From positions 1 through 36,177 of the forward strand of contig PMYE01000112.1 of assembly GCA_003171315.1 (NCBI GenBank): a stretch of 36,177 bases of DNA, read 5' to 3'. Position 1 is the first letter of the stretch, and each line of letters starts with the position of its first letter. The stretch comes from Acidobacteriaceae bacterium. GTDB taxonomy: Bacteria > Acidobacteriota > Terriglobia > Terriglobales > Acidobacteriaceae. Of this stretch, positions 2,351 to 35,607 are shown piece after piece. Under the pieces are notes generated by a model, which did no database searches, was not told the origin of the DNA, and saw nothing but the letters and a program-made list of their open reading frames with translations. The position numbers and the translations under genes were made by a program.

Positions 2351-2442
2351 CGTTGCTAGCGGTGTTAGCGGAGCTAGATCCCCTTCGATTGTGCCGTAGT
2401 TGAATTTGGTCTGACACCGCTCATGTGCGAGAAAGGATTGAC

Positions 2443-2901: not shown

Positions 2902-2960
2902 GACGGCTGCAAGCGGGCACAGACCTGGCGGCGATTGCGCGACCCTTCGCCCCCAAGTCA

Positions 2961-2987
2961 TTGAGATCCAGGTGCATCCGATAAAAT
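2961..2987 (+). promoter_or_regulatory. Candidate sigma-70 promoter for the HAD gene
   Basis: TTGAGA (2961-2966) and TAAAAT (2982-2987) each match the consensus at five of six positions. The spacer is 15 bp, shorter than the ideal 17. The pair lies in the gap after rpiB and upstream of the phosphatase gene. Prediction by eye only. Confidence 0.4.
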
Positions 2988-3141
2988 AAGCGTAAGAAGT
3001 CACGAGTTGAACTAGCTGCATCCTCGGGCCGGCGTGTCGCAAGACCGCCTGCGCCATGCCCCTTGGTTCTTCCCAGATGCCTCACGAGAAATAACGCGCC
3101 ATGCCGTGCAGGAGTTTGCATCGCGCAGGAAAGAAACGACT

Positions 3142-3789: not shown

Positions 3790-3835
3790 CCGTTTGGCGC
3801 GATTCGTGTCTAATCGGATAGGGATTGAGACACCC

Positions 3836-4585: not shown

Positions 4586-4708
4586 GCCGATCCTGCTGCG
4601 CAGAGAAATCCAAAGAGAAGCTGGGCGCGTCCAATTATCAGACGAATCCGAATCCGCGAAGGCACTCGGAGGAGGACGCGGATCGACGTACACTGGAGAA
4701 GCTCTCGA

Positions 4709-20343: not shown

Positions 20344-23300
20344 ATGAATTTGAAAGCGATGCGAGGAGTTGGTTACTGGGCGCTGGCGTTCCTGGCGGCG
20401 GCGCCGTTGCTTTGCAGGGCGCAGAATCGCTACGACGTGGAGGCGATCCGCCTGAACAATCGCGGCGTGGCGCTGATGGGTCAGCAGCTTACCGAGCGCG
20501 CCGCGGGGAGTTTTGCCGAAGCCTTCAAGAAAGATCCAAAGCTGGCCCAGGCCGCCATCAACGAAGGTATTGCGCTGCTGACGCTGCAAAAGCTGGACGA
20601 AGCCAAGATAGCGCTCAAGCAGGCCATTGCCATCGACCCGACCAGCGCGCAGGCGTGGTACAACCTGGGACTGGCGCAACATGCGGGCAACGATCTGACC
20701 GGCGCGCTGGCCAGCTTTCAGCAGGCGGTGAAGCTCGATCCCGTGGACGCGGACTCATGGTATTTCGAAGGCGCCTGCTACCAGGACATGAAGCAGTTCG
20801 ACAAGGCCGCAACGGCCTTTGAGAAGACGCTCACGATCAATCCGTTGCACGTGTCGGCAGAGTTCGCCCTGGCGCGGTCGCTGCAGCGCATGGGCCGCAC
20901 CGCGGAGGCGAGGGAGCACTTTGCGCATTTCCAGCATTTGGCAAACGCGAAGATTTCCTCGCCGCTGGGTCTGTCTTACGGCGAGCAGGGGCACTATTCG
21001 ACGGCAACCGCGATTGAAGAGCCGGAGAGCATCCAACACACGATGATTCCGGTGCGGCTTGTGACGCAGCCGATTGCCGCGCCCGGCCCTGGAGGCGCTT
21101 CGTCATGGAAGACCACCGGCGGGGCCTGCATGATGGATGTGACCGGCACGGGGCAGATGGATCTGGTGCTGATGCAATCGGGCGCTCAGGCCATTCGCGT
21201 ACTGCACAATCGGGGCGGCGGGAACTTTGCAGAGGTTGATGCGGCGGCGGCAGGGCTGAAAGCAAGCGGCCACGGCGTGGCGTGCGCCGTTGGCGATTAC
21301 GACAGCGACGGGTTGAACGACCTGGCTGTGGCTCTGGACGACCGCGTGCTGTTGTTTCACAACCTCGGCCACGGGCAATTCAAGGATGTGACGGCGGGAT
21401 CCTGCCTTGCGCCGCGCAACCGGCCCACGGGCATTACGTTCGTGGATTATGACCACGACGGCGATCTGGACCTGCTCTTGACTGGCGCGCCGGCGGCTCG
21501 GGGCGGCGAGTCGAACGTGCTGTGGCGCAACAACGGCAACGGAACCTTTACCGAGCAAACCGAGCAGACGGGATTGGGTGGGAGCGGCAAGACGGCGGCA
21601 GTGATTCTGACCGATTTCAATAACGATCGCGCCGTGGATCTGGCGGTGACCGGCGACGGGCCTTCGCCGCTGATTTACGTGAATCCACGCGAGGGCAAGT
21701 ATCCTACGCAGCCGTTGTATGAAGGCGCGAAGCTGCCGCCCACGGTGGGCATCGCGGTGCTCGACTACAACAAGGACGGCTGGATGGACATCGCGGTGAC
21801 GCACGCCGGCGCGCCGGGGCTTACATTGTGGCGAAACGTCGAGGCGCCCGATCGCATCGGCCGGCGCTTTGAGCGTGTCGCGTTGCCGGTGCATGGGGTT
21901 GTGCGCGGGTGGGGCCTGACGCCCGTGGACATCGACAACGACGGCTGGGTCGATCTGGCGGCGATCGTGGAGACAAAGGCGGGCCCAAGCGTACGTGTCT
22001 TCCGCAACAAGGGCGACGGCGGCTTTGAGGACGTGAGCCACGCGCTGGGCCTGGACGACATTCGCCTCACTGCGCCGCGAGGGCTGATTGCGGCGGAAGT
22101 ATATGGCGACGGCGCGCCGGACCTGATCGTCACCCAGGAGAATGCTCCGCCGGTGCTGCTGCGCAACGTGGGCGCGAACAAAAATCACTTCGTGCGCCTC
22201 GACCTAAGCGGTCTGGCGGACAACAAAACCGGGCTGGGCGTGAAGGTGGAGGTGTTTGCGAACGGACTCTGGCAGAAGTGGGAGCTGGCGGGCGCATCCG
22301 GTTACCAGACGCAGGCTGCGCCGCAGATTCTTGTGGGTCTTGGCGACGCGCCGGGCATTGACGTGCTGCGCATGTTGTGGCCCACGGGAGTGATGCAGGA
22401 CGAGATCAATTTGCCTCAGCAACGGGTGATCGAGATGAAGGAAGTGGACCGGCGCGGCAGCTCGTGCCCGGTGCTGTTCGTGTGGGATGGGCATCACTAC
22501 AAATTCGTAACCGACGTGATTGGCGCGGCCGTGGTGGGGCACTGGTTTACGCCCACGCGGCGCAATACGCCGAATCCCGGCGAGTGGGTGAAGATCGACG
22601 GCGCGAATGTGGCGCTGGCGGACGGCAAGATCAGCGCGCGCTTTATGGAGCCGATGGAGGAAGTGAATTACATCGACCAGTTGCGGATGGTTGCGGTCGA
22701 TCATCCCGAGGGCGTGGAGGTGAATCCCGACGAGCGGTTCCTCGACAATCCGCCATTTGCCTCGGGCCGCGTGGTGGCGAGCACGGACACGCGCTTGCCC
22801 CAGGGGGCGTGGGACGGCGAAGGGCGCGACGTGCTCAATCGGCTGAGCCGGCGCGATCACGTATTTGCGAGCGGATTCAAGGTGTTGCCCTACGACGGGT
22901 TTGCGAATCTGCACGCGCTCACGCTCGATCTGGGTGAGATCAAGGCAAACGCTCCGCTGCGGCTGCTGATGACCGGCTACGTGAACTACTTCAGCGCGAC
23001 CTCGCTTTATGCGGCGTGGCAAGCGGGGTTGAAGGAGATTCCGCCATACGTGGAGGCGGAGTTGCCCGACGGTACGTGGCGGCGGATCGCCGGCGATGCG
23101 GGATTTCCTGCCGGGCTGGAGCGGACGATCGTTGTGGACCTGACGGGCAAGCTGCCCGCGGGCACGCGGCGCATCCGGCTGATGACGAACCTGCAGATTT
23201 ACTGGGACCAGGTGCTGATCGACCAGAGCACAGACGCGGAGGCGCGGACGACGGAAGTTCCACTGGACAGCGCGACGTTGCACTTCCGGGGTTACCCGAA

Positions 23301-23805
23301 GCAGATCGAGGGCGCCAGTCCCGACGACCTGAACTACGACTACAATCTGGTAAGCCTGACCGGGCCGTTCCTGCGTGAGCGCGGCAACTACACGCACATG
23401 GGCGACGTAACTCCACTCGTCAAAAGCATTGACGACCGGTTTGTGGTCTTCGGCAGCGGCGAGGAGGTTGCGGCGGAGTTCGATGCGGCCGCTCTGCCCG
23501 CTCTGCCCGCGCATTGGAAGCGCGATTACTTTTTCTATGCCAACGGATTCGTGAAAGACATGGATTGGTGGGATGCGTCGCCATACACCGTGGCGCAACT
23601 GCCGTTTCATGGCATGAGCGAGTATCCCTATCCGGCGAGCGAGAAACCGGCTGACGATGCGAGCCGGCTCGACTACGAGTTGAACTGGAACGACCGGTTC
23701 GACTCGGGCGCACCGGTGCGGTCTTACCGGTTCCAATATCAGTACTTGCCGTCCGCGCCGCGGGAGGATCGGGCGCCGCAATCGTCACCGGGAACGCAGC
23801 CGTGA
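20344..23805 (+). CDS. Exported TPR + FG-GAP + ASPIC/UnbV protein with novel C-terminal region
   Basis: 1153-residue exported protein. After a signal peptide (cleavage near CRAQN, residues 24-28) come four to five TPRs (about 30-195; AQAWYNLGLAQHAGNDLTGA is typical). Seven FG-GAP/VCBS blades follow (about 255-610) with calcium-loop motifs such as DYDSDGLNDLAV, DYDHDGDLDLLL, DYNKDGWMDIAV and DIDNDGWVDLAA. An ASPIC/UnbV-like domain (about 613-700) has GLGVKVEVFANGLWQKWELAGASGYQTQ-type sequence. Residues about 705-1140 form a large region I do not recognise, opening SSCPVLFVWDGHHYKFVTDV and rich in Trp, Tyr and Asp. The order suggests a periplasmic or surface binding protein. The stop overlaps the amidase start (GTGA), so the two are coupled. 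Confidence 0.88.
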   Translation: MNLKAMRGVGYWALAFLAAAPLLCRAQNRYDVEAIRLNNRGVALMGQQLTERAAGSFAEAFKKDPKLAQAAINEGIALLTLQKLDEAKIALKQAIAIDPTSAQAWYNLGLAQHAGNDLTGALASFQQAVKLDPVDADSWYFEGACYQDMKQFDKAATAFEKTLTINPLHVSAEFALARSLQRMGRTAEAREHFAHFQHLANAKISSPLGLSYGEQGHYSTATAIEEPESIQHTMIPVRLVTQPIAAPGPGGASSWKTTGGACMMDVTGTGQMDLVLMQSGAQAIRVLHNRGGGNFAEVDAAAAGLKASGHGVACAVGDYDSDGLNDLAVALDDRVLLFHNLGHGQFKDVTAGSCLAPRNRPTGITFVDYDHDGDLDLLLTGAPAARGGESNVLWRNNGNGTFTEQTEQTGLGGSGKTAAVILTDFNNDRAVDLAVTGDGPSPLIYVNPREGKYPTQPLYEGAKLPPTVGIAVLDYNKDGWMDIAVTHAGAPGLTLWRNVEAPDRIGRRFERVALPVHGVVRGWGLTPVDIDNDGWVDLAAIVETKAGPSVRVFRNKGDGGFEDVSHALGLDDIRLTAPRGLIAAEVYGDGAPDLIVTQENAPPVLLRNVGANKNHFVRLDLSGLADNKTGLGVKVEVFANGLWQKWELAGASGYQTQAAPQILVGLGDAPGIDVLRMLWPTGVMQDEINLPQQRVIEMKEVDRRGSSCPVLFVWDGHHYKFVTDVIGAAVVGHWFTPTRRNTPNPGEWVKIDGANVALADGKISARFMEPMEEVNYIDQLRMVAVDHPEGVEVNPDERFLDNPPFASGRVVASTDTRLPQGAWDGEGRDVLNRLSRRDHVFASGFKVLPYDGFANLHALTLDLGEIKANAPLRLLMTGYVNYFSATSLYAAWQAGLKEIPPYVEAELPDGTWRRIAGDAGFPAGLERTIVVDLTGKLPAGTRRIRLMTNLQIYWDQVLIDQSTDAEARTTEVPLDSATLHFRGYPKQIEGASPDDLNYDYNLVSLTGPFLRERGNYTHMGDVTPLVKSIDDRFVVFGSGEEVAAEFDAAALPALPAHWKRDYFFYANGFVKDMDWWDASPYTVAQLPFHGMSEYPYPASEKPADDASRLDYELNWNDRFDSGAPVRSYRFQYQYLPSAPREDRAPQSSPGTQP

Positions 23806-25211
23806 ACGATGTTGTGCTGGCCCCGGCGGCGAGACTGCTTGAGCTGGCGCGCACGGGCCAGCTCTCTGTAACGGAGTTGGCCGAGGCGCACATCCGGCAG
23901 ATCGAGCGGCTGAATCCGGAACTCAACGCGTTCGCCGACTTCGACGCGGAGCGCGTGCGCGCGCAGGCGCGGCGGCTCGATGCGATGCGCGAACCGCGCG
24001 GCCCGTTGCATGGCCTTCCGGTTACCGTCAAGTCTTCGATTGCCACCGCGGGTTACCGCTGCGAGATGGGGAGCCTGCTGCACAAGGGCGAGACTGCGAA
24101 TGAAGATGCCGTTGTGGTGGCGCGGCTTCGCGCGGCGGGAGCGTTGATCCTGGGCACGACCAACTGCCCGGAGTTCCTGATGGCGTATGAGACCGCGAAC
24201 CGGCTTTACGGGCGCACGCGGAACCCGTGGGACCTTGAGCGCTCGCCTGGCGGATCGAGCGGCGGCGAGTCGGCGGCGATTGCGGCGGGGATGTCCGCGG
24301 CGGGATTGGGCAGCGATAGCGGCGGATCGGTGCGGGTGCCCGCACACTTCACGGGAATCTGCTCGCTCAAACCGACTCCCGGCCGGATTCCGGGACGAGG
24401 CCATCTGCCACCCTGCGTGGGGCCGTTCGCAATTCTGGGCGCCATCGGGCCCATGGCGCGCACCATGGGCGACGTTGCCTTGCTGTTCCGCGCTCTCAGC
24501 GGCCAGGATCCGCTCGATCCGGTCAGTCCGCCTGTGGCGCTGAGAAATCCGGGGCCGGATGAGTTGCGCGCGAGGGCGATCGGGTATTTTGAGGACGATG
24601 GTCTGGTTCCCGTGACGCACGAGACGCGCGCCGCAGTGAACGATGCCGCGCAAGCACTGCGCGAGGCGGGGTTTCGCGTCGAGCCGTTCCGGCCGCGCAC
24701 GCTGGAGCGGTTGAGGAAGTTGTGGTGGACGTTTTTTGTGCAATGCGGGGCCATGTTCTACGAGCCGGAGATTCGCGGCAAACAGGAACGGCTGAGCCCC
24801 ATCTTCAAAGAGTTTCTTTCGATTGCGGAGGCCTCCGGGCCAATCAACGCGACGGATCTGCTGAACGCGTGGGCCGAGCTGGACGTACTGCGCGCAAGAA
24901 CGCTCGAGGAAATGAGAGAATTTTCCGTGTTGCTCTGCCCGGCGGCGGCAATTCCCGCATTCCGCCACGACGAGCGCACATGGACAATCGACGGCGCATC
25001 CGTGAATTACCTCGACGCCGTCCGCTACACGCAATGGTTCAACGCGCTCGCTTGCCCGGCGGCTGTGGTTCCCGTAGGCCGGTCGTCCGAGGGGTTGCCG
25101 ATTGGCGTGCAGATTGCCGCGCGGCCCTTCGAGGATGAGATCGCGTTGGGCATCGCGGCCGTTGTGGACGCGGCGTTTGGCTATCGCCCGCCACCAATGG
25201 CGCTGGCGTGA
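23802..25211 (+). CDS. Amidase-signature family hydrolase
   Basis: Ser-cisSer-Lys amide hydrolase of 469 residues. The full catalytic set is visible: Lys77 in LPVTVKSSI, the paired serines 152/153 in SPGGSSGGESAA, and nucleophile Ser176 in GSDSGGSVRVPA. There is no signal peptide, so it is cytoplasmic. It lacks the companion subunits of GatCAB and the context is not tRNA-linked, so a small-molecule amidase is more likely than GatA. The GTG start overlaps the preceding stop, which ties its expression to the exported TPR/FG-GAP protein. That pairing is unexpected for a housekeeping amidase. The substrate cannot be named from sequence. Confidence 0.92.
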   Translation: MNDVVLAPAARLLELARTGQLSVTELAEAHIRQIERLNPELNAFADFDAERVRAQARRLDAMREPRGPLHGLPVTVKSSIATAGYRCEMGSLLHKGETANEDAVVVARLRAAGALILGTTNCPEFLMAYETANRLYGRTRNPWDLERSPGGSSGGESAAIAAGMSAAGLGSDSGGSVRVPAHFTGICSLKPTPGRIPGRGHLPPCVGPFAILGAIGPMARTMGDVALLFRALSGQDPLDPVSPPVALRNPGPDELRARAIGYFEDDGLVPVTHETRAAVNDAAQALREAGFRVEPFRPRTLERLRKLWWTFFVQCGAMFYEPEIRGKQERLSPIFKEFLSIAEASGPINATDLLNAWAELDVLRARTLEEMREFSVLLCPAAAIPAFRHDERTWTIDGASVNYLDAVRYTQWFNALACPAAVVPVGRSSEGLPIGVQIAARPFEDEIALGIAAVVDAAFGYRPPPMALA

Positions 25212-25384
25212 ACCGCTCCCGGGTCAATTTTCCCATTCTAAGCAATGGTTTGCGGGGTGTTCAGGACCTCTCCGTCACCGCTTCTCGCGCTTCTATAGAT
25301 CAACCTTTCGATGGAGGCCATTTTTCTATGACAGCGGTACACTGACGTTTCCCCGAGAACTGGAGGCCGGATGGAGCGCTCAGG
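25212..25384 (+). promoter_or_regulatory. Gap between amidase and DAHP synthase genes
   Basis: No gene is seen. TATAGA (25294-25299) and TACACT (25338-25343) are weak -10 candidates without good -35 boxes. GGAGG (25362-25366) is a strong Shine-Dalgarno-like sequence but lies 18 nt from the GTG used by the next gene. It better fits the out-of-frame ATG at 25371, which opens a frame of about 22 codons. Confidence 0.3.
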
Positions 25385-26287
25385 GTGCGTGAAAGCTGGC
25401 AGGAAAGGTTCGCCGAGACCCCCGATGTTTTGCTAGACGCGCGGCGCCAGCGGACGATTGTGCCGGTGCTAGGTTTTGCTGTCGGCGGCGATGAGTTCGT
25501 CACCATGGCTGGGCCGTGCTCGGTGGAAACCGAGTCCCAGATCATGGCCACTGCCAAGCACGTGCGCAGGATGGGCGCGCGCGTTCTGCGCGGCGGCGCG
25601 TTCAAGCCGCGCAGCTCTCCCTATGCGTTTCAAGGCCTGGGCCTGGAGGGTCTGAAACTGCTCGCCGCGGCGCGCGAACAAACCGGCCTGGCCATCGTCA
25701 CCGAGGTGATGTCGGAGTGCGACGTTCCGCTGGTCGCCGAGTATGCCGATATTTTGCAGATCGGCTCGCGCAGCATGGAAAACTACACGCTGCTGGAAGC
25801 GGCAGCGCGTTCCGGACGGCCGATTCTGCTGAAGCGCGGCATGATGGCCACCATCGCCGATTTTCTGCGCTCGGCGCAGGTGATCCTGGACAACGGCAAC
25901 CCCAACCTCATTCTGTGCGAGCGCGGCATCCGCACGTTTGAAACGGCCATGCGCAACACCTTCGATGCCGCAGGCATTGCCCTGCTGAAACAGATCGCGC
26001 ACCTGCCTGTGATCGCCGATCCGAGCCACGCAGCCGGGCATCACGATCTGGTTCCCGCGCTAGCGCGCATCGGCATCGCCGCCGGCGCAGACGGCCTGCT
26101 GGTGGAGGTGCATCCCAATCCCGACAAGGCATGGAGTGACGGCGAGCAGTCGCTGGACTTTGCGGAGTTTGATGCCATGATGGCCGCGCTCGAGCCCTGG
26201 ATCGCACTGCGCGGAATGACGCTGCACGAAGAGATGCTGGGACAGCGTGAACTTGCCGGCCTCCGTACCCTGGAGGCGGTGGGATGA
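25385..26287 (+). CDS. aroF: DAHP synthase (type I beta), without regulatory domain
   Basis: 3-Deoxy-D-arabino-heptulosonate 7-phosphate synthase joins phosphoenolpyruvate and erythrose 4-phosphate, the first step of the shikimate pathway. Landmarks are the metal ligand Cys45 in [68 protein letters not shown] and [20 protein letters not shown]. All catalytic and metal residues appear intact. Only about 38 residues precede the barrel, so the ferredoxin-like or chorismate-mutase-like N-terminal regulatory domains of type I beta relatives are absent. The enzyme is probably insensitive to feedback. The GTG at 25385 is the only start in an open stretch that begins at 25346. The stop overlaps the next gene (ATGA), linking it to a string of exported heme and propeller proteins. 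Confidence 0.95.
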
Positions 26288-27699
26288 GATTGCCGCTTGC
26301 CGCACTGGCTGTTGCCGTGCCGGTTGCCATGATGCTCAATCCAGTATTCGGGCTCACCACGGACGCGGAGCAGATCGCTGCTCCCGATTTCATCGTGACG
26401 GCCGCACCCGCTTACGAACCGCTGGCCGAGCTGCGCGGGCAGGAACGGTTCCCCCGGGGCGCGCAACTGCTGCTGGTTCATGCGGGAAAAGCCGAGCCCC
26501 TGGTGACCGGCTTTGCGGCTGCGGCGGACGCGAACGTATCTTTCGATGCGCAAACCGTGCTGTTTGCCGGCAAGCAGTCCGCGGGCGATCCCTGGCAGAT
26601 TTGGGAACTGACGCTGAAGGACCGCTCTGTGCGCAAGGCGATTGCGACGGACGCAGATGCGGAGCGTCCCTTCTATCTGCCGGGCGGGCGGATGGTGTGG
26701 GCGCAATGGACGCCCACGGGGTTCCAAGTGCAATCCGCCGAGGATGGGCATCCGATGGGGTACACGCCGTGGAATCCGACGGCAGGGCCGGGCGTACTGC
26801 CGCTCACCTACATGGGGACCAGCGCATTCCCAGTGGACGTGCTGCGGGACGGACGGATTCTGTTCGAAGCCGGCTTTCCCCTGGGCCACGGTTCGACACC
26901 GGAACTGTACCTGGTTTATGCCGACGGCTCGGGAGTGGAGGCCTACCGTTGCGATCATGGGCGTGCGCGGTGGGGCGGGACGCAAGTAGATTCGGGCGAC
27001 GTGGTCTTCACGCACGGGGCTTCCCTGGCGCGGTTCACATCGGCGCTGGTGCACGAAGAGCCGGTTCAAGCGCCGCGCGGCACGTACGCCGGAGCGATTG
27101 CCGAAACCGCTTCCGGAGCGTGGCTGGTGAGCGCGAGAGCGGCGGCAGACGCACGATACGCGATCAAGATCTGGCAACCCGGCGCGACGGCGATGCGCAC
27201 CGTTCTGGCGGAGAGTGGCGAAGATCTCGTCGAGCCCGTATTGGTCGCGCCGCGCAACAGGCCCAATCGGCATCCTTCGGGCCTGCACCCATGGAACTAT
27301 TCAAACCTGCTGGCGCTGGACGCGCGGGTTTCCCGCGACGGCGCTTTGAAGGGGACGCCCGTGTCGGTGCTCCTGGAAGCGCAGGACGCTGCGGGCCGCG
27401 TAATGACGATGGGAACGGCGCCGGTGGAAAAGGACGGCTCGTTCTTCGTGAAGGTTCCGGGCGACCGGCCCATTCGATTTTCGCTGCTCGATTTCAAAGG
27501 CGCGGTTCTGCGGCAGGAACATGGCTGGTTCTGGGCCCGGGGCGGCGAACAGCGCATTTGCGTGGGCTGCCACACGGGGCCGGAACGCGGTTCGGAGAAT
27601 CGCGTTCCGGACGTGCTGATGCGGACCACCGTACCTGTAGATTTGGCCGGCGCAAAACCCGTGGCGGCGACGCAGGCTGGAGCGCCGGGAGGCAAATGA
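26284..27699 (+). CDS. Exported mono-heme protein resembling hydrazine synthase alpha subunit
   Basis: 471-residue exported protein. The signal peptide ([20 protein letters not shown]) is followed by a propeller-like region of about 300 residues with blade-type sequence ([38 protein letters not shown]). A beta domain (about 345-415) and a single c-type heme site CVGCH (426-430) follow. The order, and phrases such as [17 protein letters not shown], recall HzsA-like proteins, which are widespread outside anammox bacteria. There is no reason to infer hydrazine synthesis here, since HzsBC are missing. A periplasmic electron-transfer or sensor role is inference. The start overlaps the DAHP synthase stop by 4 bp. 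The tail after the heme is short. Confidence 0.75.
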
Positions 27700-27701
27700 T
27701 T

Positions 27702-29504
27702 ATGAAGTTCGTTTTACTTTTCCTTCTTGGCGCTGTTCCGGTTGCGATGGGGCAAACCGGCGGCACGCAGCCCTCCCACGAGGCACCTCCCTCCCCTGCC
27801 GCGCAAACGGCGCCAGCCGCATCGCAAGCGGCTTCCGCAAGCGCGCAAACGCCGCTCCAGCCAGTGATCCGCTTTGAGGACGCGACCGACGAGTCGGGCA
27901 TCCACTTCACGCATAGTTTCGGATCGGCCAAGCTGGGTTCGCTGCTGGAAGGCACCGGCGGAGGCTGCGTCTGGTTAGACTTCAACAACTCGGGCCGTCC
28001 CTCTCTTTACGTTGTCAGCGGGCGGCCGCTCGACGATTCGATGCATCCTTATCCGCTGAAAGTGAAGCCGAATCCGCCGCCGCATAATCATCTCTACCGT
28101 AACGACGGCAACGGCCACTTTACCGATGTGACCGAGCAATCGGGCTTGAATCCGGAACTGTATTCGATCGCGGTGACGGCGGCGGACTACGACAATGACG
28201 GCTACGAAGACCTGCTGGTGACCGGCTACGGCAAGGTGGTTCTCTATCACAACGACGGCAACGGCCACTTTACCGACGTGACGGAAAAAGCGGGCATCAA
28301 GGTCGACGGCTGGTCGATCAGTTCCACCTGGCTGGACTACGACCGGGACGGCTGCCCCGATCTCTTCGTCGGCCGCTACGTCAAGTTCGATCCGAAATAT
28401 CACAACTATTACGCCGCGGATAACTACCCCGGGCCGCTCGACTACGAAGGCGAAACCAACGTGCTGTTCCATAACAACTGCGATGGAACATTCACCAACG
28501 TGTCGGACAAGTCGGGGATCGGCGCGTATGTGGGCCGCACCATGGGGGTGACTGCGGCGGACTTTGACAACGATGGTTGGGACGACATCTACGTTTCCAA
28601 CGATCGCACGGAGAATTTCCTATTCCACAACAAGCACGATGGGACATTTGAGGAGATCGCGACCGATGCCGGCGCCGCCTTTGGGCAGAACGGCGAGGCC
28701 ACTTCCTCCATGGGGCCTGTGGCGGCAGACTTCAGTGGCCGGGGAGTGCTCGATCTCTGGGTGAGCGACGGAAACTACAACCGTTTCATGCAGAACACGG
28801 AAGGCGCCACGGCCGGATCGTCCACAGCACAGCCGAATTCCGCCAAGACAGGCTTTGAAGACGAGGGCGCATCCAATGGAATCTCGCAGACCGACGCGCA
28901 GTATGTGAGCTGGGGTTCGGGCGTCTACGACTTCGACAACGACGGACTGCTTGACATCCTCGTATTCCACGGCGGTCTGATTCATCTGATTCCGCAGGAG
29001 CACACACTGTTTCGCGGGCTTGGCAATGACCAGTTCCAGGATGTGTCGCGCCAGGCCGGCCCCGTAATGGAAGCGCGCACGGTCGCGCGCGGCGCCTGCT
29101 TTGCCGACTACATGAACGACGGCAAGGTCGATGCCTATCTGGTGAACCTCGGCGCCGATGGCAAGCTCTTCCACAATGTTTCGACCGCTGCCGGCCACTG
29201 GCTCGAGGTGAAGCTGGTCGGCGCCATGCGTGCCGGCGATAAAGGCACCGCGCCCGGTCCCGGCGCAAAGAGCAATCGCGACGGCCTCGGCGCACGCATT
29301 GAAGTGCTGGCCGGCGGCAAGCGCTGGACCGCCGAGCGCGTCGCCAGCTCCGGCTATCTGTCGCAGAACGACGGCCGCCTGCACTTCGGGCTCGGAGCGG
29401 CAACAAGCATCGACAAACTGATCGTTCATTGGCCCAGCGGACGCGAGCAGATGCTCGACAACGTCGGCGTGGACCGCGTGCTGACCGTCGAAGAACCCAA
29501 ATAA
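27702..29504 (+). CDS. CRTAC1-type FG-GAP/ASPIC-UnbV exported protein
   Basis: 600-residue exported propeller. The ATG at 27702 is preferred to 27696 because GGGAGG (27687-27692) is 9 nt away instead of 3. A signal peptide (MKFVLLFLLGAVPVAMG) and a Pro/Ala/Gln linker are followed by seven calcium-loop blades: DFNNSGRPSLYV, DYDNDGYEDLLV, DYDRDGCPDLFV, DFDNDGWDDIYV, DFSGRGVLDLWV, DFDNDGLLDILV and DYMNDGKVDAYL. The C-terminus is an ASPIC/UnbV domain (GLGARIEVLAGGKRW, SSGYLSQNDGRLHFGLG, VHWPSG). Related proteins are abundant in Acidobacteriota and Planctomycetes with poorly known function, probably calcium-dependent binding of glycans or proteins outside the inner membrane. It sits between two heme proteins in the same operon. 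Confidence 0.88.
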   Translation: MKFVLLFLLGAVPVAMGQTGGTQPSHEAPPSPAAQTAPAASQAASASAQTPLQPVIRFEDATDESGIHFTHSFGSAKLGSLLEGTGGGCVWLDFNNSGRPSLYVVSGRPLDDSMHPYPLKVKPNPPPHNHLYRNDGNGHFTDVTEQSGLNPELYSIAVTAADYDNDGYEDLLVTGYGKVVLYHNDGNGHFTDVTEKAGIKVDGWSISSTWLDYDRDGCPDLFVGRYVKFDPKYHNYYAADNYPGPLDYEGETNVLFHNNCDGTFTNVSDKSGIGAYVGRTMGVTAADFDNDGWDDIYVSNDRTENFLFHNKHDGTFEEIATDAGAAFGQNGEATSSMGPVAADFSGRGVLDLWVSDGNYNRFMQNTEGATAGSSTAQPNSAKTGFEDEGASNGISQTDAQYVSWGSGVYDFDNDGLLDILVFHGGLIHLIPQEHTLFRGLGNDQFQDVSRQAGPVMEARTVARGACFADYMNDGKVDAYLVNLGADGKLFHNVSTAAGHWLEVKLVGAMRAGDKGTAPGPGAKSNRDGLGARIEVLAGGKRWTAERVASSGYLSQNDGRLHFGLGAATSIDKLIVHWPSGREQMLDNVGVDRVLTVEEPK

Positions 29505-29521
29505 GGATGCGAAGGAATACG

Positions 29522-31495
29522 ATGCGAATGGCAGGATCGATCAAGAATACGCGGAGCGATTTCAGGGTAGGGCGAGCCTTGGCCGCCGTGCTCGGAGGAT
29601 GCGCCGCGCTCCTGCTTGGTCTGGTTCTGCGCCCCGGAATGGAGCGGCCGGCCTATGCAGGCACGACGCCGGTCAAAGGTCCATCGCTCGACAACTTCAT
29701 CGACTACGCATCGCCGCTCGAAGTGCTGCTTTCTCCCGATGGCGCGCGGCTCTACGTGTTGTGCCAGCAGAGCGAGGAAGTCCGCGTGCTCGATGCGGGC
29801 AGCTACGGAGTGATCGGAAAGATCGCCGTTGGCCGGGTTCCGCGCGGCATGGCGCTCTCGGCCGGCGGCGAGCGGCTCTTAGTCACAAACTCGTGGGACG
29901 ACACGCTTTCGGTCATCGATACGCGCGCACTGGCCGTGACCGCTACGTGGAAGGTGGGCGCGGAACCATCCGGCGTGGTGGAAGACCTGGCAGGGAAGTA
30001 TGTCTTTGTCGCCAACCGCATCTCCAATGATGTGGCGGTGCTCGATGCACAAACAGGGGTGGAGGAAAAGCGTCTGCTGACAGGGCGCGCGGCCAGTTAT
30101 CTTACGCTTTCGCCCGACGGCAAGCGGATTTACGCAACCCATATTTATCCCAACCCCGATCCGCTGCGCACAGGCCTCGAAAACCGCACCCCTCCCGAGT
30201 CGGAGATCACCGTCATTGACGCGCAGCGCGCCGAGGTCGTCGACCGCATTCCGCTGCATTCCATCGCGGGTGTCTTCCATCTGGCCTTCTCGGCGGACGG
30301 CAGGCTGGGCGTGGTTGCCGAGTATCATCCCAAAAATCTCGTTCCCCTGGCGCATCTCGAACACGGTGGCGCCTTCGCTTACACACTCACGCTCTTTGGC
30401 GCGGACGTGGGCAAGCCCGTGGAAGTTCCGCTCGATGAGCTGGAGCGCTACTCGGCGCAACCCTTCGGTGTCGCCATCGCACCGGATAAATCGCGGATCT
30501 ATGTCACTCTTGCCGGCTCTGAAAGCGTTCTGGTTATCGATGTGCCGCGCCTGATGCGCTTCCTGCGCACACGGCCCCGCCCGGCGTCCGGCTCATTCGC
30601 GCAGGATCTATCAGCCAGCGGCGACTACGTCATCGCCCGCATCCCCGTCGGCCACAATCCCCGCGGGCTTGCTCTCAGCCGCAACGGGCAAACGCTCTAC
30701 GTGGCCAACCGTCTCGACGACACGATGAGCGTGATTGATACACGCACGCTCCGCGTCGCTACAACCATCGCTTTGGCGGGGCCAACGACCGTGAGCGCGC
30801 TGCGCCGCGGCGAGCAGACGTTCTATTCGGCGCACTACTCGTTCCAGGGGCAGATCGGCTGCTCGAGCTGCCACATCGATTCCACCTTCGACGGGCTGCA
30901 GTGGGATCTGGAGCCGGACGGTTTCGGAATCGACATCGTGGACAATAAGATGCTCGAGGACATCAAGGACGTCGCGCCCTATAAGTGGAACGGAGGCAAC
31001 CCCAACCTGCCCACCGAGTGCGGCCCGAGAACGGAAAAATACTTTTGGCGCTCGGAGAATTACGGCGACCTGCAATTGACCGATCTGGTTCTCTATATTC
31101 GCAGCCTTCCAGCCCGGCCTAACCGCTGGCGGCTTCCGGGCCATGAACTCACTCCGGCACAGGAGCGCGGCAAGGCAATCTTCGAGCGCACGGTCGATCA
31201 GTTCGGCAAGCCGATTCCGCTCGAAAACCGCTGCTCCTACTGTCACAGCGGGCCACAGGGAACCGACCGAAAGCTATTTGACGTGGGTACGCGCAAGCTC
31301 ACCGACATCACCGGAGTCTTCAAGACGCCGCAACTGACCAACATCGCGCTGACGGGACCCTTTTTGCACGATGGATCGGCACGCACGCTCGAAGAGATCT
31401 GGACCATCTACAACCCCGAGGACAAGCATGGCCGTACCAACGACCTGATCAAGGATCAGCTCAACGACCTGATCGAATATCTGAGGACGCAATGA
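29522..31495 (+). CDS. YVTN beta-propeller fused to di-heme cytochrome c peroxidase/MauG-like domain
   Basis: 657-residue exported protein. The ATG at 29522 has AAGGA (29512-29516) 5 nt upstream; other in-frame ATGs lie at 29507 and 29528. A signal anchor near residues 20-40 is followed by a YVTN propeller (about 50-430) with LLVTNSWDDTLSVID, YVFVANRISNDVAVLD and LYVANRLDDTMSVID. The C-terminal 220 residues carry two c-heme sites, CSSCH (447-451) and CSYCH (571-575). They end with FKTPQLTNIALTGPFLHDG and LEEIWTIYN, the hallmark of bacterial di-heme peroxidases and MauG. In such enzymes one heme is catalytic and the other transfers electrons. The substrate could be peroxide or a partner protein undergoing cofactor maturation. 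The stop overlaps the Reg_prop gene (ATGA). Confidence 0.88.
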   Translation: MRMAGSIKNTRSDFRVGRALAAVLGGCAALLLGLVLRPGMERPAYAGTTPVKGPSLDNFIDYASPLEVLLSPDGARLYVLCQQSEEVRVLDAGSYGVIGKIAVGRVPRGMALSAGGERLLVTNSWDDTLSVIDTRALAVTATWKVGAEPSGVVEDLAGKYVFVANRISNDVAVLDAQTGVEEKRLLTGRAASYLTLSPDGKRIYATHIYPNPDPLRTGLENRTPPESEITVIDAQRAEVVDRIPLHSIAGVFHLAFSADGRLGVVAEYHPKNLVPLAHLEHGGAFAYTLTLFGADVGKPVEVPLDELERYSAQPFGVAIAPDKSRIYVTLAGSESVLVIDVPRLMRFLRTRPRPASGSFAQDLSASGDYVIARIPVGHNPRGLALSRNGQTLYVANRLDDTMSVIDTRTLRVATTIALAGPTTVSALRRGEQTFYSAHYSFQGQIGCSSCHIDSTFDGLQWDLEPDGFGIDIVDNKMLEDIKDVAPYKWNGGNPNLPTECGPRTEKYFWRSENYGDLQLTDLVLYIRSLPARPNRWRLPGHELTPAQERGKAIFERTVDQFGKPIPLENRCSYCHSGPQGTDRKLFDVGTRKLTDITGVFKTPQLTNIALTGPFLHDGSARTLEEIWTIYNPEDKHGRTNDLIKDQLNDLIEYLRTQ

Positions 31496-32625
31496 GAAAA
31501 TTTGCCGATAAGAGGTGGTTTGCAATGGCGCTGCTGGCAGCCGCGGTCGCGGCGGCGGCAACGCCGCGGGGGACCGCGCAGACGCCTGCGCGACAGCCGC
31601 ATGCCGCGGCAGCAGCCACGGCCGTTCCGCGGATGCCGCATTTCAAGTTCGTGAACTACACCACCGAAGACGGATTGCCCAATAACCACGTGTACTGCGT
31701 GCTGGTGGATGGCGACCGGATCTGGGCCGGCACCGACAACGGCCTGGGGCTCTTCGAAAACGGAAAGTGGAAGACCTACAACACGAAGGACGGCTTGGCG
31801 CACCGGGCGGTTCTTTCGCTTTCACTCGACAAACGAACCGGTGACGTGTGGGCTGGCACCATGGGCGGGCTTAGCCGCATCTCCGGCGGACGTATCATCA
31901 GCTACACGCAGATGAACTCCGGACTGAGCAACGATATCGTATACGGCGTATCGGTCGAGGGTGAGAACGTGTGGGTGGCGACGGCTTCCGGCGCCGGGCG
32001 GCTGAATCTGCACACCGGCGAGTGGTCGCTCTACAACGAGCGCAACACTCCAATGAAAGAGATCTGGGTGTACGGGGTTTCCGCCAAGCCGGATAAAGTT
32101 TACTACGCCGTCTGGGGCAGCGGCGTGCTCGAGTACACCCAGAAGACGGGACGCTGGGATATGTACGCCGACCCGGATGAAGAGACCGAGCTCGTGCTCT
32201 TCAAGGACCAGGGGCTGGTCCACGACATCGTATCTTCGATCAGTTACGTCGACAACATCGTGTGGGTGGCGACCTACTTTGGCGACAGCCGCTACGACGG
32301 CCGCTACTGGCACAACTTCCTGACGAAAGACAGTGGGCTCCCCTCGAACTTCACGAACTTTGTGAAGGGCGCGGACGCCAATCATGCCTGGTTCTGCACC
32401 GACAAGGGCCTGGCTTACTACGACGGAACCAACTGGGCTGTCTATACGCGCTCGCTCACCACGCACAAGCCTGAAATGACGGTACGCGACGCGAAAGGCA
32501 AAGTAACGGAGATTCCCGTGACTACGGGACCGGCCCACAACTACATGAACGGGGTCGACTTTCAGGGGGGCGACATCTGGGTTGCCACATCCGAAGGGTT
32601 GAGCCACGGAATTCTCGAACACTGA
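31492..32625 (+). CDS. Stand-alone Reg_prop beta-propeller protein
   Basis: 377-residue exported protein with a signal peptide (MRKFADKRWFAMALLAAAVA, Ala-rich). Seven Reg_prop-type blades make one complete propeller: RIWAGTDNGLGLF, DVWAGTMGGLSRI, NVWVATASGAGRL, YYAVWGSGVLEY, IVWVATYFGDSRY, HAWFCTDKGLAYY and DIWVATSEGLSHG. YTTEDGLPNNHVYCVLVDGD just after the signal peptide closely resembles the opening of the kinase input domain at 11066-14095. Unlike that protein it has no Y_Y_Y, membrane or kinase domain. It may bind the same class of ligand, or act as a scaffold for the neighbouring heme proteins. It is coupled to the di-heme gene upstream by a 4-bp overlap, and ridA follows after 18 bp. 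Confidence 0.86.
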   Translation: MRKFADKRWFAMALLAAAVAAAATPRGTAQTPARQPHAAAAATAVPRMPHFKFVNYTTEDGLPNNHVYCVLVDGDRIWAGTDNGLGLFENGKWKTYNTKDGLAHRAVLSLSLDKRTGDVWAGTMGGLSRISGGRIISYTQMNSGLSNDIVYGVSVEGENVWVATASGAGRLNLHTGEWSLYNERNTPMKEIWVYGVSAKPDKVYYAVWGSGVLEYTQKTGRWDMYADPDEETELVLFKDQGLVHDIVSSISYVDNIVWVATYFGDSRYDGRYWHNFLTKDSGLPSNFTNFVKGADANHAWFCTDKGLAYYDGTNWAVYTRSLTTHKPEMTVRDAKGKVTEIPVTTGPAHNYMNGVDFQGGDIWVATSEGLSHGILEH

Positions 32626-32643
32626 GCTAAAAGGAGACTAGCC

Positions 32644-33144
32644 ATGAACGCAATTGCAGAAGTACTGAAAACGATCGCGCACGCACCGGTCAAGAAATGC
32701 GCGATCACCAATCACGGCGTGCTGAACGAAGCCTATGCCTATGCCAAGCCGAGTTCGTTTTCGCGCGGCATGAGAATCGATCTGAACGGAGTGACGATTC
32801 TGTTGATATCGGGAACCGCATCGATCGACGAGAACGGCGTGAGCGTTCACATCGGCGATTTCCGCGCGCAGATGCGCCGCACACTATCGAATATCACTGG
32901 ACTGCTGGCCGCCGAGGGCTGCACCTGGCACGACATCGTGCGGACCACGTGCTACCTGCGCGACATCGAGCGCGACTACGAGGCATTCAACGAGGAGCGG
33001 ACGGCGTTCTACAAGGAACAGGGACTCGATCCCCTGCCCGCGTCGACCGGCATTCAGGCGATTCTTTGCCGGCCGGAGCTGCTCATCGAGATTGAGGCGA
33101 TCGCCATGTTCCGCACGGATAAGGACGCAGGCAACAAGGAGTAG
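32644..33144 (+). CDS. RidA/YjgF-family protein
   Basis: 166-residue cytoplasmic protein with a strong ribosome-binding site (AAAAGGAG, 7 nt before the ATG). The RidA fold is recognisable from LLISGTASIDENG, FRAQMRRTLSNITGLLAAEGC, DIVRTTCYLRDIERDYEAFNEERTAFY and the C-terminal LLIEIEAIAMF. RidA itself deaminates reactive enamine/imine intermediates formed by PLP enzymes. The Arg in ILCRPEL lies close to the conserved catalytic Arg position but needs a 2-residue shift to align, so enzymatic class is uncertain. An N-terminal extension of about 35 residues is present. Standing alone among exported proteins, it implies that the operon also has a cytoplasmic chemical step, perhaps with the DAHP synthase. 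Confidence 0.88.
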   Translation: MNAIAEVLKTIAHAPVKKCAITNHGVLNEAYAYAKPSSFSRGMRIDLNGVTILLISGTASIDENGVSVHIGDFRAQMRRTLSNITGLLAAEGCTWHDIVRTTCYLRDIERDYEAFNEERTAFYKEQGLDPLPASTGIQAILCRPELLIEIEAIAMFRTDKDAGNKE

Positions 33145-33149
33145 CTGTC

Positions 33150-35189
33150 ATGAGGTTAGGGGTACTGTCAATTTCGGTTTGTCTCCTAGCGCTCGGCGCC
33201 GCAGTGGTTGTCGCGGCGCAGAGCGCTCCTGTGTGCGAATGCGGCAAGCATCCGCCAGGCCCGCCGCGCGATCGCACCGTAGAGCCCTACGCGGGCGAAC
33301 CTGATGACTTGCGGCCGTTCGCCAAATTCGAGAAGCCTTACTACGAAAACTATATTCAGCCCGATATTTACGTGGGCGCAGGCCGCGACATCCCCGAGCC
33401 CAAGGACATCACCGAAGTCCGGATCGGTTTCTTCGCCCCACTTGAGCCCAGCCCAGATCATGTCGATGGCGAGCGTATGCTGCACGGAGCGCAGTTGGCG
33501 GTGGAGGAGGCCAACGCGCGCGGCGGCTATGGCGGCAAGCCCTTCAAACTGATGTTGCACAACGACTACAACAACTGGCAGGCCAAGGCCGTCTATGGCT
33601 CGACCCGCCCGACCGACGAGGGGATCTGGGGCTCGGCTGGAGACGAAGGGGTCAAGATGATCTACGACGATCAGGACTGGGCCATCTTCGGTTCGATCAG
33701 CTCGGAGAGCACGCACATCATCCTGCGCCTGGTTCTCAAGGCTGAAATCCCTATTGTAAATACGGAGTCGACCGATCCTACGATTCCGGAGACCTACGTT
33801 CCCTGGTACTTCACCGATCTGCAGGACGACCGCGTTCAAACCTATACGCTCGCCCGTCATATCTATACCGACTTGGGCCTCAAGAGGATTGCACTTCTCC
33901 GCTTGAACAATCGCTATGGCCGAATGGCCTCGCCGAAGTTCCGGAATGCGTCGGTGCGTCTGGGGCATCCTGTCGTGATTGAACAGAAGTTTATGCCGGG
34001 GGATACGGATTTTACGCGGGCGCTGCGCATCATCCGCGATTCGCATGTCGACGGCATTGTGCTGTGGGCCGACGAAACCGAGACCGCGAATATCCTGAAG
34101 CAAATGCGCGCCATGGGCATGAAACAGCGCGTCTTTGGCTCCTATCGCACGCTGGGGCCCGATCTGCTGGCTCAGGCCGGTCCGGCCGCCGAGGGTTTCC
34201 AGGCCGTTTTTCCATACGACCCGACACGCAACGACCCGCGCTGGCTGGACTTCAACCGCCGCTTCGAAGCTCGCTTCCACGAGCAGCCCGAGCAGTTTGC
34301 TTCGCTGGCTTATGACGCCATGAATATGCTGCTCGACTCCATTTGCAAGGCCGGGCTGAACCGGGCGCGCATTCACGATGCGCTCGCCGACATCGAACAG
34401 TACGACGGCGTGACCGGGCACATGATCTTCGATCCGAACCAGAAGAATGTGGCCCCCATGTACCTGGGAACGGTGCACAACGGAACGATTACCTATCGGG
34501 TTGCGACGATGAACAAGCAGCCCACAGCGCCGAGCGCGCCAAGGCAGGTGTCGTTGGCCGCGCCACGACCGCTCGCGGCAGGGCAGACGCCGTCTTCAGA
34601 GCAGGAATCTTTGGCGCAACAGGCGCCCTACGCGCGCGTGGGCGAGGATGGAGTGAGTTACTTCGGCCCGCAGCGGCCCGACGTGCCCGCGGGAACGTTG
34701 AAATTGGTTTTGTTCGGGCCTGAGGCAGACAAAGTGGCGCAGTCGGTCGAGATGCAGACGGCGTTGGCGGAAGGCACGGCTGCGGGGCGGGAGTGGGAGC
34801 TGCTGCCCGTGGGCAGCGACGTGAACTGGAGCTCGGCGGACTGGCCGGTGTGGGCTGCTTCCACGCAACTGGTGCACGCGGTGATGGACGAACACCCGCT
34901 CGCCATCCTGGCCCTGAACCGCGACGCCGCGCACCTGGCCGAACAACTGGCGCTGAAAGGCTTTGTGCCCGTGATTGCCCTGGCCGACGACAAAACGCTC
35001 ACCTCAACCAACATTCCGTGGATCTTCCGCATGCCGGCGCGGACCCCGCCGGCCACTGCGCTGCGCCTGCTGGAGACAGCCACGCTCCGCAGCGGAACCA
35101 ACCCGGAGCGGCTCAGGGATGTGCTGGCGTCGGGAGATGCAATTTCCGGAATGGCCTTTCTGCCGACGGGAGAGCCGCGCAGCCGGTGA
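33150..35189 (+). CDS. Periplasmic binding protein (Peripla_BP_6 type) with extra half-domain
   Basis: 679-residue exported protein starting 5 bp after ridA. The signal peptide (MRLGVLSISVCLLALGAAVV) is followed by a Cys/Pro-rich segment with CECGKHPPGPP. A full type I binding fold (about 90-470) has IGFFAPLEP, HGAQLAVEEANARGGYGG, WAIFGSISSESTH, IPIVNTESTDP and YGRMASPKFRN, as in branched-chain amino acid binding proteins. After a Pro/Ala/Gln linker, about 515-679 resembles part of a second such fold (LKLVLFGPEADKVAQ, PLAILALNRDAAHLAEQLALKGFVPVIAL, PWIFRMPARTPP). No permease or ATPase genes adjoin it. It may deliver ligand to the operon's redox proteins or act as a sensor. Similar unaccompanied binding proteins occur with PQQ-dependent alcohol catabolism genes. 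Confidence 0.86.
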   Translation: MRLGVLSISVCLLALGAAVVVAAQSAPVCECGKHPPGPPRDRTVEPYAGEPDDLRPFAKFEKPYYENYIQPDIYVGAGRDIPEPKDITEVRIGFFAPLEPSPDHVDGERMLHGAQLAVEEANARGGYGGKPFKLMLHNDYNNWQAKAVYGSTRPTDEGIWGSAGDEGVKMIYDDQDWAIFGSISSESTHIILRLVLKAEIPIVNTESTDPTIPETYVPWYFTDLQDDRVQTYTLARHIYTDLGLKRIALLRLNNRYGRMASPKFRNASVRLGHPVVIEQKFMPGDTDFTRALRIIRDSHVDGIVLWADETETANILKQMRAMGMKQRVFGSYRTLGPDLLAQAGPAAEGFQAVFPYDPTRNDPRWLDFNRRFEARFHEQPEQFASLAYDAMNMLLDSICKAGLNRARIHDALADIEQYDGVTGHMIFDPNQKNVAPMYLGTVHNGTITYRVATMNKQPTAPSAPRQVSLAAPRPLAAGQTPSSEQESLAQQAPYARVGEDGVSYFGPQRPDVPAGTLKLVLFGPEADKVAQSVEMQTALAEGTAAGREWELLPVGSDVNWSSADWPVWAASTQLVHAVMDEHPLAILALNRDAAHLAEQLALKGFVPVIALADDKTLTSTNIPWIFRMPARTPPATALRLLETATLRSGTNPERLRDVLASGDAISGMAFLPTGEPRSR

Positions 35190-35485: not shown

Positions 35486-35607
35486 CAGGGAACAGGGAGC
35501 AGGGAACAGGGAGCAGGGAGCAGGGAGCAGGGAACAGGGAGCAGGGAACAGGGAATAGGGAACAGGGAGCAGGGAACAGGGAGCAGGGAACAGGGAATAG
35601 GGAACAG
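35486..35607. repeat. Heptanucleotide tandem repeat, 17 units
   Basis: Seventeen head-to-tail 7-bp units of consensus YAGGGAR (mostly CAGGGAA or CAGGGAG, two TAGGGAA), plus a final CAG. Units 6-11 (35521-35562) and 12-17 (35563-35604) are identical, so a 42-bp block has been duplicated. GGCAGCC occurs on both sides (35463 and 35611). Two more degenerate units, CAGGGAT twice, lie at 35704-35717. The array is open in several frames on both strands but is very unlikely to be translated. Confidence 0.95.

Follow-up and report, generated by a model that had tools for sequence, protein, structure and literature searches.

Homologues of hydrazine synthase joined to a DAHP synthase and an arginine-less Rid protein in a conserved operon of soil Acidobacteriota

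Why would a DAHP synthase and a Rid-family protein be encoded in one co-directional block with exported heme and propeller proteins? The question is raised by a contig of an Acidobacteriaceae bacterium (PMYE01000112.1, 36,177 nucleotides, named here the window), in which positions 25385–35189 hold seven genes, all on the + strand. The features of the block are as follows.

25385–26287, + strand: gene 1, type I-beta DAHP synthase, 300 aa, an extra paralogue (TIGR01361; the catalytic domain alone was matched)
26284–27699, + strand: gene 2, exported mono-heme hydrazine synthase (HZS) alpha-like protein, 471 aa (PF18582, 4.4e-16; propeller and HZS middle domain)
27696–29504, + strand: gene 3, exported CRTAC1-like FG-GAP/ASPIC-UnbV propeller (PF13517, PF07593)
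29507–31495, + strand: gene 4, exported HZS beta-gamma-like fusion (YVTN propeller and di-heme domain; matches to 5c2v_B and 5c2v_C)
31019–31021, + strand: Cys codon aligned with HZS gamma-Cys165, the third heme bond in HZS (alignment)
31492–32625, + strand: gene 5, exported stand-alone Reg_prop propeller (PF07494 only)
32644–33144, + strand: gene 6, Rid-family protein, 166 aa, without export segment (PF01042; Ser at the catalytic Arg105 position)
33150–35189, + strand: gene 7, exported double periplasmic-binding protein (PF13458 in two stretches: a Peripla_BP_6 domain and a second, shorter region)

The tight coupling described in the first-pass annotation is confirmed by the coordinates: three ATGA overlaps fall at 26284, 27696 and 31492, and the remaining gaps, of 2 (or 17), 18 and 5 bp, do not exceed 18 bp. 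The start of gene 4 is uncertain; the longest reading frame begins at TTG 29429, and ATG 29507 or 29522 look likelier. The five exported proteins and three c-type heme sites claimed earlier agree with five hydrophobic N-termini (genes 2–5 and 7, with 15-residue hydropathy maxima of 2.13–2.75) and with three CxxCH motifs, one in gene 2 (residue 426) and two in gene 4 (residues 452 and 576, numbered from 29507). For genes 1 and 6 the maxima are 1.51 and 1.39, which by hydropathy indicates no export segment. The gene families named in that annotation stand as domain matches and have to be amended in three cases: gene 4 is an HZS beta-gamma homologue, gene 6 is devoid of the RidA catalytic Arg, and gene 7 is a double binding protein, whose counterpart in relatives with arrangement B is two binding-protein genes. 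In the domain search of the Reg_prop protein no kinase domain was found. Scans of the block for promoters and terminators gave no signals above those of shuffled sequences.

Gene 2 encodes a homologue of the hydrazine synthase alpha subunit, and gene 4 one of the beta and gamma subunits in fused form. Gene 2 matches 5c2v_A by profile (E 1.1e-27), and its structure model matches 5c2v with E 4e-21 and TMq 0.71–0.72. As a single sequence, gene 4 matches 5c2v_B (5.9e-39) and 5c2v_C (1.9e-22), and by profile its di-heme part matches HZS gamma at 6.7e-43, far better than MauG, at about 1e-8. The analogy with MauG and PQQ-dependent catabolism drawn in the earlier annotation is thus not the closest one, since the best solved relatives by sequence are HZS gamma for the di-heme part and HZS alpha for gene 2. 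The whole gene 4 protein does reach PF03150 (29.6 bits, cut-off 25.6) and, with two CxxCH motifs, qualifies as carrying a MauG/CCP domain, in which the inter-heme Trp is present; a whole-genome search of the window's own genome with PF03150 matched nothing although this protein reaches the model, and that search was disregarded.

Homology does not make the pair a hydrazine synthase. The alpha fold with the alphaI CxxCH is present in gene 2, but the alphaII bis-His heme domain is missing (471 aa, one CxxCH). The position of Tyr591, the proximal ligand of heme alphaI, is occupied by Glu in an ungapped alignment of the window, and none of 58 matches to the alpha heme-site pattern has a Tyr at this spacing. 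In gene 4, Trp replaces gamma-His144 in the alignment (for the roles of these residues, see section 8 of Hagglund et al., 2025; PMC12758564). The NCBIfam scores also lie far under the cut-offs: 47.6 bits against the equivalog cut-off of 800 for HZS alpha, and 187.4 against 1250 for hydrazine_BC, in spite of an E value of 3.6e-55. Membership in hydrazine synthase is rejected on the missing alphaII heme, the missing Tyr591 and these scores, and by such sequence features the predicted heme complex falls outside hydrazine synthase proper. A Cys aligned with gamma-Cys165 is kept in the window's clade (27/27 readable loci of arrangement A). Among 33 readable loci of arrangement B, 25 have another residue there (Asp in 22, Ala in 3), so the module does not depend on this site.

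Is the block a unit, or did seven genes come together by chance? Five of the genes, those for the alpha-like, CRTAC1, YVTN/di-heme, Reg_prop and binding proteins, occur together at every one of 44 Acidobacteriota loci whose flanks are complete; the Rid gene is present at 42 of these loci (missing at 2) and the DAHP synthase gene at 38 (missing at 6), while in the deep loci L147 and L148 neither was observed. A survey of 247 phylum genomes returned the Reg_prop protein in 13 of them (E<=1e-40). For the alpha-like protein the count was 14 (at E<=1e-20, a cut set after the list was viewed; at 1e-10, 24 genomes match), and 13 genomes have both (Fisher p 9e-21). By the listed coordinates both lie on one contig, about 7.5 kb or less apart, in 10 of these 13, and on separate contigs in the other 3, whose assemblies consist of about 650–950 contigs. 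Such linkage, far above chance in the phylum genomes and conserved in the full-flank loci, rejects accidental adjacency. It also answers the gene-neighbourhood check proposed with the first-pass annotation, as homologues are linked in Acidobacteriota and not scattered. The block is present in records of the named strains Occallatibacter savannae AB23 and Granulicella sp. L46. It is concluded that the conserved co-directional block is a real unit in soil Acidobacteriota. The TPR/FG-GAP and amidase genes upstream (20344–25211) are not favoured as further members: in the window a gap of 173 bp parts them from gene 1, an amidase stands upstream in 13 of the 23 arrangement-A loci having more than 2.5 kb ahead of the DAHP synthase, and at locus L137 both genes are downstream on the opposite strand. 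Downstream of the block, some relatives carry a GMC oxidoreductase and a gluconate-2-dehydrogenase-type subunit 3.

The DAHP synthase of the operon is an additional copy. Gene 1 scores 351.1 bits with TIGR01361 (cut-off 267.75), and C45, H215, E241 and D252, which we take from the Thermotoga enzyme to be the metal ligands, are invariant in 8/8 operon copies, which together place it in type I-beta. Five PF00793 proteins, a count that includes the KDO8P-synthase type, occur in each of five operon genomes tested (the window's own included), while two genomes of the genus that lack the operon have 3 and 4. A single clade of all operon DAHP synthases is rejected (AU p 0.0002), as is one of A plus B alone (p 2e-6). 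The operon copies take three separate placements among paralogues of the same genomes, with four label changes under parsimony, three of them forced by starred branches, and this suggests three origins of the operon DAHP synthase, as far as can be judged from a midpoint-rooted tree, which does not directly tell gain from loss and in which an older operon copy that had been replaced would leave the same picture. Loci were available for 30 of 44 matches, and the 16 A and 16 B rows of the tree are a hand-picked subset of those available; L168 and L169 (the operon copies of genomes G000 and G002), five duplicates, three short fragments and one KDO8P-synthase-like row were left out. The position of the gene varies as well: it can precede alpha, stand between Rid and the binding protein, separate the two binding proteins or follow both of them. 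That the units of relatives hold differing versions of DAHP synthase suggests that this enzyme and the heme complex function together.

The second cytoplasmic partner, the Rid protein, is not expected to be an ordinary imine deaminase. Ser134 of the window is at the position of the RidA catalytic Arg105, and Ser is found there in 15/15 operon Rid proteins, while Arg is retained in three ordinary RidA paralogues (from G000, G002 and G009). One RidA of the window's own genome bears the Arg. Ser at this position is reported for about 10% of RidA proteins (PMC4433059). Arg loss by itself is not special, since the non-operon paralogues L161 and L164 also lack it, with Ala in its place. The Arg-less operon type is 58–86% identical to the window's protein. 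G57, C142 and E149 are invariant in the 15 operon Rid proteins and are also present in the L151 protein, which aligns them with G240, C327 and E334 of the chorismatase Hyg5, the Glu being common among Rid proteins; a third Gly of the CH-Hyg5 subfamily falls outside the domain. As described in PMC7170507, Hyg5 uses Glu-334 as its catalytic acid and has one Gly and one Cys among its subfamily residues. A chorismatase proper was considered and is not supported, with 32.3 bits against the TIGR04444 cut-off of 325 and higher scores for the RutC and RidA models; the nearest structural (Foldseek) and sequence neighbours are RidA proteins. A search with a partial Rid sequence returned nothing useful.

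The first-pass annotation had read the block as a redox module outside the cytoplasm, possibly linked to aromatic compounds, and this view is supported. We tentatively propose a periplasmic HZS-like heme complex, coupled to a dedicated shikimate flux, that binds or oxidises a chorismate-derived product; the chemistry is what we infer, and the proposal is possible rather than probable. The alpha-like and beta-gamma-like proteins would form an alpha-beta-gamma complex in the periplasm, with the CRTAC1 and Reg_prop proteins as its scaffold. While the operon is on, DAHP synthase would boost shikimate flux, and the substrate of the Rid protein would be chorismate or an enol or aromatic acid made from it. 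The resulting compound would then exit the cytoplasm, be captured by the periplasmic binding protein and, at the gamma-type heme, be oxidised or serve as electron donor or cofactor, with electrons departing via cytochrome c. No exporter for aromatic compounds was noticed among the genes of the block, which speaks against this scheme. It is more doubtful that this is an unrecognised metabolic system, in which the complex uses a small chorismate-derived substrate or cofactor made on demand by DAHP synthase and a chorismatase-like Rid protein without Arg and delivered by the double binding protein.

The same genes can be read in other ways. The heme complex might handle nitrogen oxides as HZS does, by reduction or condensation of NO or hydroxylamine, with DAHP synthase replenishing quinones or aromatic amino acids during nitrosative stress or oxygen shortage. 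The homology itself, the gamma-Cys165 equivalent in the window's clade, a Crp/Fnr-type regulator upstream in 6/44 full loci and an HAO-type protein (PF13447) in 7 of 16 genomes searched speak for it. However, the Tyr591 equivalent is absent, gamma-His144 is replaced, and PF13447 was not found in the 4 searched genomes of the window's genus. NirK, counted over its cut-off (weaker matches, 99/247, were not counted), occurs in 6/247 phylum genomes and in 0 of the 14 with an alpha-like gene, so own denitrification is rejected as the NO source, and we consider the nitrogen-oxide reading somewhat unlikely. DAHP synthase and Rid could also be convenient passengers of a unit of five exported proteins, as the loci missing one or the other, and L147 and L148 with neither, would allow; yet differing DAHP synthase paralogues occupy the same operon and one Arg-less Rid type is conserved, which makes this improbable. 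Least credible is an oxidase of the MauG/CCP type serving to mature one of the operon's exported proteins, for example at a Trp of Reg_prop or CRTAC1, with shikimate flux feeding aromatic amino acids. The PF03150 match, the inter-heme Trp and the 14 Trp among 377 residues of the Reg_prop protein fit it, but the di-heme part is much nearer to HZS gamma, Reg_prop blades are Trp-rich family-wide, and we know of no alpha-type partner of MauG.

To our knowledge, no function has been experimentally established for HZS homologues outside anammox bacteria. Section 8 of Hagglund et al. (2025; PMC12758564) likewise gives no confirmed function for the highest-ranking structural matches of the alpha subunit. 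The operon, whose conserved version in soil Acidobacteriota includes named strains, is a handle on this function, and its recurrent evolutionary link to the shikimate pathway points toward a testable substrate class; if the chorismate-derived reading is true, the HZS superfamily would prove to have a function beyond anammox. The claim that the module had not been described as a unit holds in part. We found no paper on the seven-gene unit apart from that of Hagglund and co-workers, whose clusters of clades I–IV, as described there, already combine genes of the alpha-like, CRTAC1 and beta-gamma-like kinds, followed downstream by two genes for substrate-binding proteins. In its main text the terms acidobacteri, DAHP, phosphoheptulonate, RidA, endoribonuclease, shikimate, chorismate, regulator propeller and two-component have no occurrences (PMC12758564).

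Compared with other known systems, the Rid protein shares with the Rid family and the FkbO/Hyg5 chorismatases the fold and perhaps, as mapped through L151, the Hyg5-type Gly, Cys and Glu positions, and with Rid4–7 the loss of Arg (as given in PMC4433059), but it has a single domain where two are expected of the chorismatases, and it stays below every curated cut-off. The di-heme domain and inter-heme Trp of gene 4 are common to MauG, bacterial cytochrome c peroxidase and MbnH; in gene 4 this domain is fused to an HZS-beta-like propeller, and an HZS-alpha-like partner is encoded alongside. Its propeller half is nearer by profile to the YVTN surface-layer propeller 1l0q (3.6e-73, against 5.8e-61 for HZS beta), whereas by single sequence HZS beta comes first and 1l0q second (3.8e-36); 1l0q has no heme domain, and the propeller repeats alone match. 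The HZS of the anammox bacterium Kuenenia (PDB 5C2V) has homologous alpha (propeller and CxxCH middle domain), beta propeller and di-heme gamma, with the Cys of gamma-Cys165 found also in the window's clade. The window differs from it, beyond the heme, residue and score differences given above, in that beta and gamma are fused, alpha comes first and CRTAC1 stands between. We take Paludibaculum fermentans to be an acidobacterium. It is included in clade I of Hagglund et al. (2025), which the beta-gamma protein of L147, with ten CxxCH motifs, resembles, and clades II and III of the same work have, as described there, an alpha without alphaII, as in gene 2 of the window.

The first-pass annotation had proposed a coupled operon of seven genes. 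Their positions are confirmed, with three 4-bp ATGA overlaps and remaining gaps of at most 18 bp. Its five exported proteins and three c-type heme sites were recovered as five hydrophobic N-termini and three CxxCH motifs. The block and its surroundings contain the following features:

11066-14742: Reg_prop/Y_Y_Y histidine kinase, its propeller 35% identical to gene 5, then an open reading frame resembling a response regulator
20344-25211: TPR/FG-GAP/UnbV protein and amidase, immediately upstream of the block
25371-25400: ATG preceded by GGAGG, upstream of the DAHP synthase GTG and out of frame with it
25385-35189, plus strand: the seven genes, namely (1) type I-beta DAHP synthase, above the curated cut-off, with a provisional GTG start at 25385; (2) alpha-like protein; (3) CRTAC1-like protein; (4) beta-gamma-like protein, start provisional; (5) Reg_prop propeller; (6) Rid protein; (7) Peripla_BP_6 binding protein, matched over two stretches
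35486-35607: minisatellite, 14-bp unit in 8.7 copies (score 209), about 300 bp past the last gene

In one relative (L037), the DAHP synthase is read from an in-frame upstream start, unlike in the window, and an indel or assembly error possibly accounts for the out-of-frame ATG.

Genes 2 and 4 resemble anammox hydrazine synthase (HZS). Gene 2 matches the middle domain of the alpha subunit; PDB 5c2v_A was found by profile search at 1.1e-27, and the AlphaFold model (mean pLDDT 79) matched 5c2v with E 4e-21, the next fold being TolB at 2.2e-11. Gene 4 matched 5c2v_B (5.9e-39) and 5c2v_C (1.9e-22), beta before gamma. When its halves were compared with profiles, the surface-layer propeller 1l0q (3.6e-73) ranked above HZS beta (5.8e-61) for the propeller half, and in the di-heme half HZS gamma was clearly top (6.7e-43, ahead of 6e1c at 4e-16).

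The neighbourhood-conservation check proposed in the first-pass annotation gave a positive answer. The alpha-like protein was matched in 40 of 60 genomes (own included), a few weakly; within the window's genus it was matched in 30 of 36, and two of the six absences fall in genomes listed as 100% complete. The Reg_prop alignment, run against the named genome collection, yielded 276 pattern matches and 238 confirmed relatives, the best 80 of which were kept; the titles of these 80 are all Acidobacteriota or groups within. Every one of these best 80 loci has at least one further block gene on its strand no more than 7.5 kb away, and 78 have at least three. Full flanks (6.5 kb or more upstream, 6 kb or more downstream) are available at 44 of the 80. 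None of these 44 lacks the alpha-like, CRTAC1, beta-gamma, Reg_prop, or binding-protein gene; Rid is found in 42 and DAHP synthase in 38. Less regular companions are a second binding-protein gene (21 loci), a GMC oxidoreductase (14) and its subunit 3 (13), and a Crp/Fnr-type regulator (6). A few loci share a MAG of origin (e.g., L085 and L087), so these counts are not all independent. The window's order (arrangement A) occurs in 22/44, and the amidase lies upstream in 13 of the 23 arrangement-A loci having room for it. Arrangement B runs alpha, CRTAC1, beta-gamma, Reg_prop, Rid, DAHP synthase, and two binding proteins, often with GMC and subunit 3. The Reg_prop protein occurs in 13 of 247 genomes from the phylum, all within the 14 that have the alpha-like protein at E<=1e-20 (Fisher p 9e-21). 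Loci of more distant families, several cut by contig ends, also combine alpha, CRTAC1, beta-gamma, and Reg_prop with binding proteins; in some of them the beta-gamma protein begins with eight additional CxxCH motifs. A second, smaller copy was seen in one genome (L041, 1-5000; G010:C125), where the alpha-like gene adjoins a gene for a beta-gamma-like protein that has three CxxCH motifs and, in the Cys165 position, Asp; neither CRTAC1 nor Reg_prop was matched beside this pair within 1-5000.

The DAHP synthase tree comprised 58 rows, 36 operon copies and 22 paralogues from elsewhere in the same genomes. Arrangement-A enzymes form one clade, whose sister is the non-operon paralogues L170 and L171 of G054 and G052, two genomes whose own operon holds a B-type enzyme. 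The second clade unites arrangement-B copies with deep-branching loci L145 and L152, and the third unites deep loci L144 and L151 with paralogue L188. The operon/non-operon label requires 4 changes, 3 of them forced by starred branches; the tree is midpoint-rooted, so the direction of change is not inferred. A tree that groups all operon enzymes is worse by 81.5 log-likelihood units (AU p 0.0002); the penalty is 76.2 for uniting A with B (p 2e-6) and 70.3 for uniting A with the third group (p 0.0003). On a fewest-changes reading, the enzyme would have entered the operon three times; replacement of an older operon copy by another paralogue would leave the same tree pattern as separate origins. 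Under either history, this operon has retained or regained the same enzyme, a pattern not easily accounted for unless enzyme and operon share a function. C45, H215, E241, and D252, unchanged across 8 aligned operon enzymes, are presumably the metal ligands, as in the Thermotoga enzyme. Five operon genomes of the genus each encode five proteins matching PF00793, a family that includes KDO8P synthase; two operon-free genomes encode three and four.

All 15 operon Rid proteins compared, the window's included, carry Ser at the catalytic-Arg position. Seven Rid loci lie outside the block in the window's own genome, G002, and G009; the residue was read in six of them (all but L162). The ordinary RidA proteins L158, L159, and L160 have Arg there, and L161 and L164, of another Rid type, have Ala. 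The sixth, L166 (G002:C1:425877-426188), is a second operon-type Rid with Ser, apparently missing the usual N-terminal part; its genome, of the same genus, consists of one contig. According to PMC4433059, Rid4-Rid7 lack the catalytic Arg and apparently imine hydrolysis, and Ser stands at this place in about 10% of RidA proteins. Both the model scores and the Foldseek ranking of the Rid protein favour RidA over a chorismatase. In the deep-branching operon L151 (3477-4673, minus strand), a longer tandem-Rid protein, apparently of three domains, replaces the single-domain Rid. Gly57, Cys142, and Glu149 of the window's Rid are common to this protein, which aligns there with Hyg5 (PDB 5ag3) 240, 327, and 334 (positions counted by hand); Glu-334 is the catalytic acid of Hyg5 (PMC7170507), and the Gly and Cys given there for the Hyg5 subfamily equal 240 and 327 if a numbering offset of 9 holds.

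The Rid residues and the tandem-Rid protein may point to chorismate chemistry, as leads and not as proof. It is a tentative proposal that a periplasmic HZS-like heme complex works with a chorismate-derived small molecule; the main rival is N-oxide chemistry by such a complex. The cluster of HZS homologues is conserved and was partly known before; what is added here is that DAHP synthase and an Arg-less Rid are its recurrent partners.

The relation to HZS can be judged from the active site. In HZS as described in PMC12758564 and PMC12607021, heme gammaI is bonded a third time through gamma-Cys165, heme alphaI has alpha-Tyr591 as its proximal ligand, and gamma-His144 occupies the place of Trp in MauG and CCP. 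Compared with HZS, gene 4 has a Cys aligned to gamma-Cys165, with a one-residue gap beside it, but Trp at the gamma-His144 place, and gene 2 has Glu in the alpha-Tyr591 column; 58 pattern matches of the alpha heme site showed no Tyr four residues past CxxCH. Among the best 80 of 238 loci, the Cys165 place holds Cys in 27 of arrangement A (2 more unreadable) and in the 14 without arrangement assignment, and Cys in 8, Asp in 22, and Ala in 3 of arrangement B (4 unreadable). The fused subunit of Scalindua HZS has the same beta-then-gamma order as gene 4 (PMC12758564). On these active-site residues, the predicted heme complex is a relative of the hydrazine synthases and not a member.
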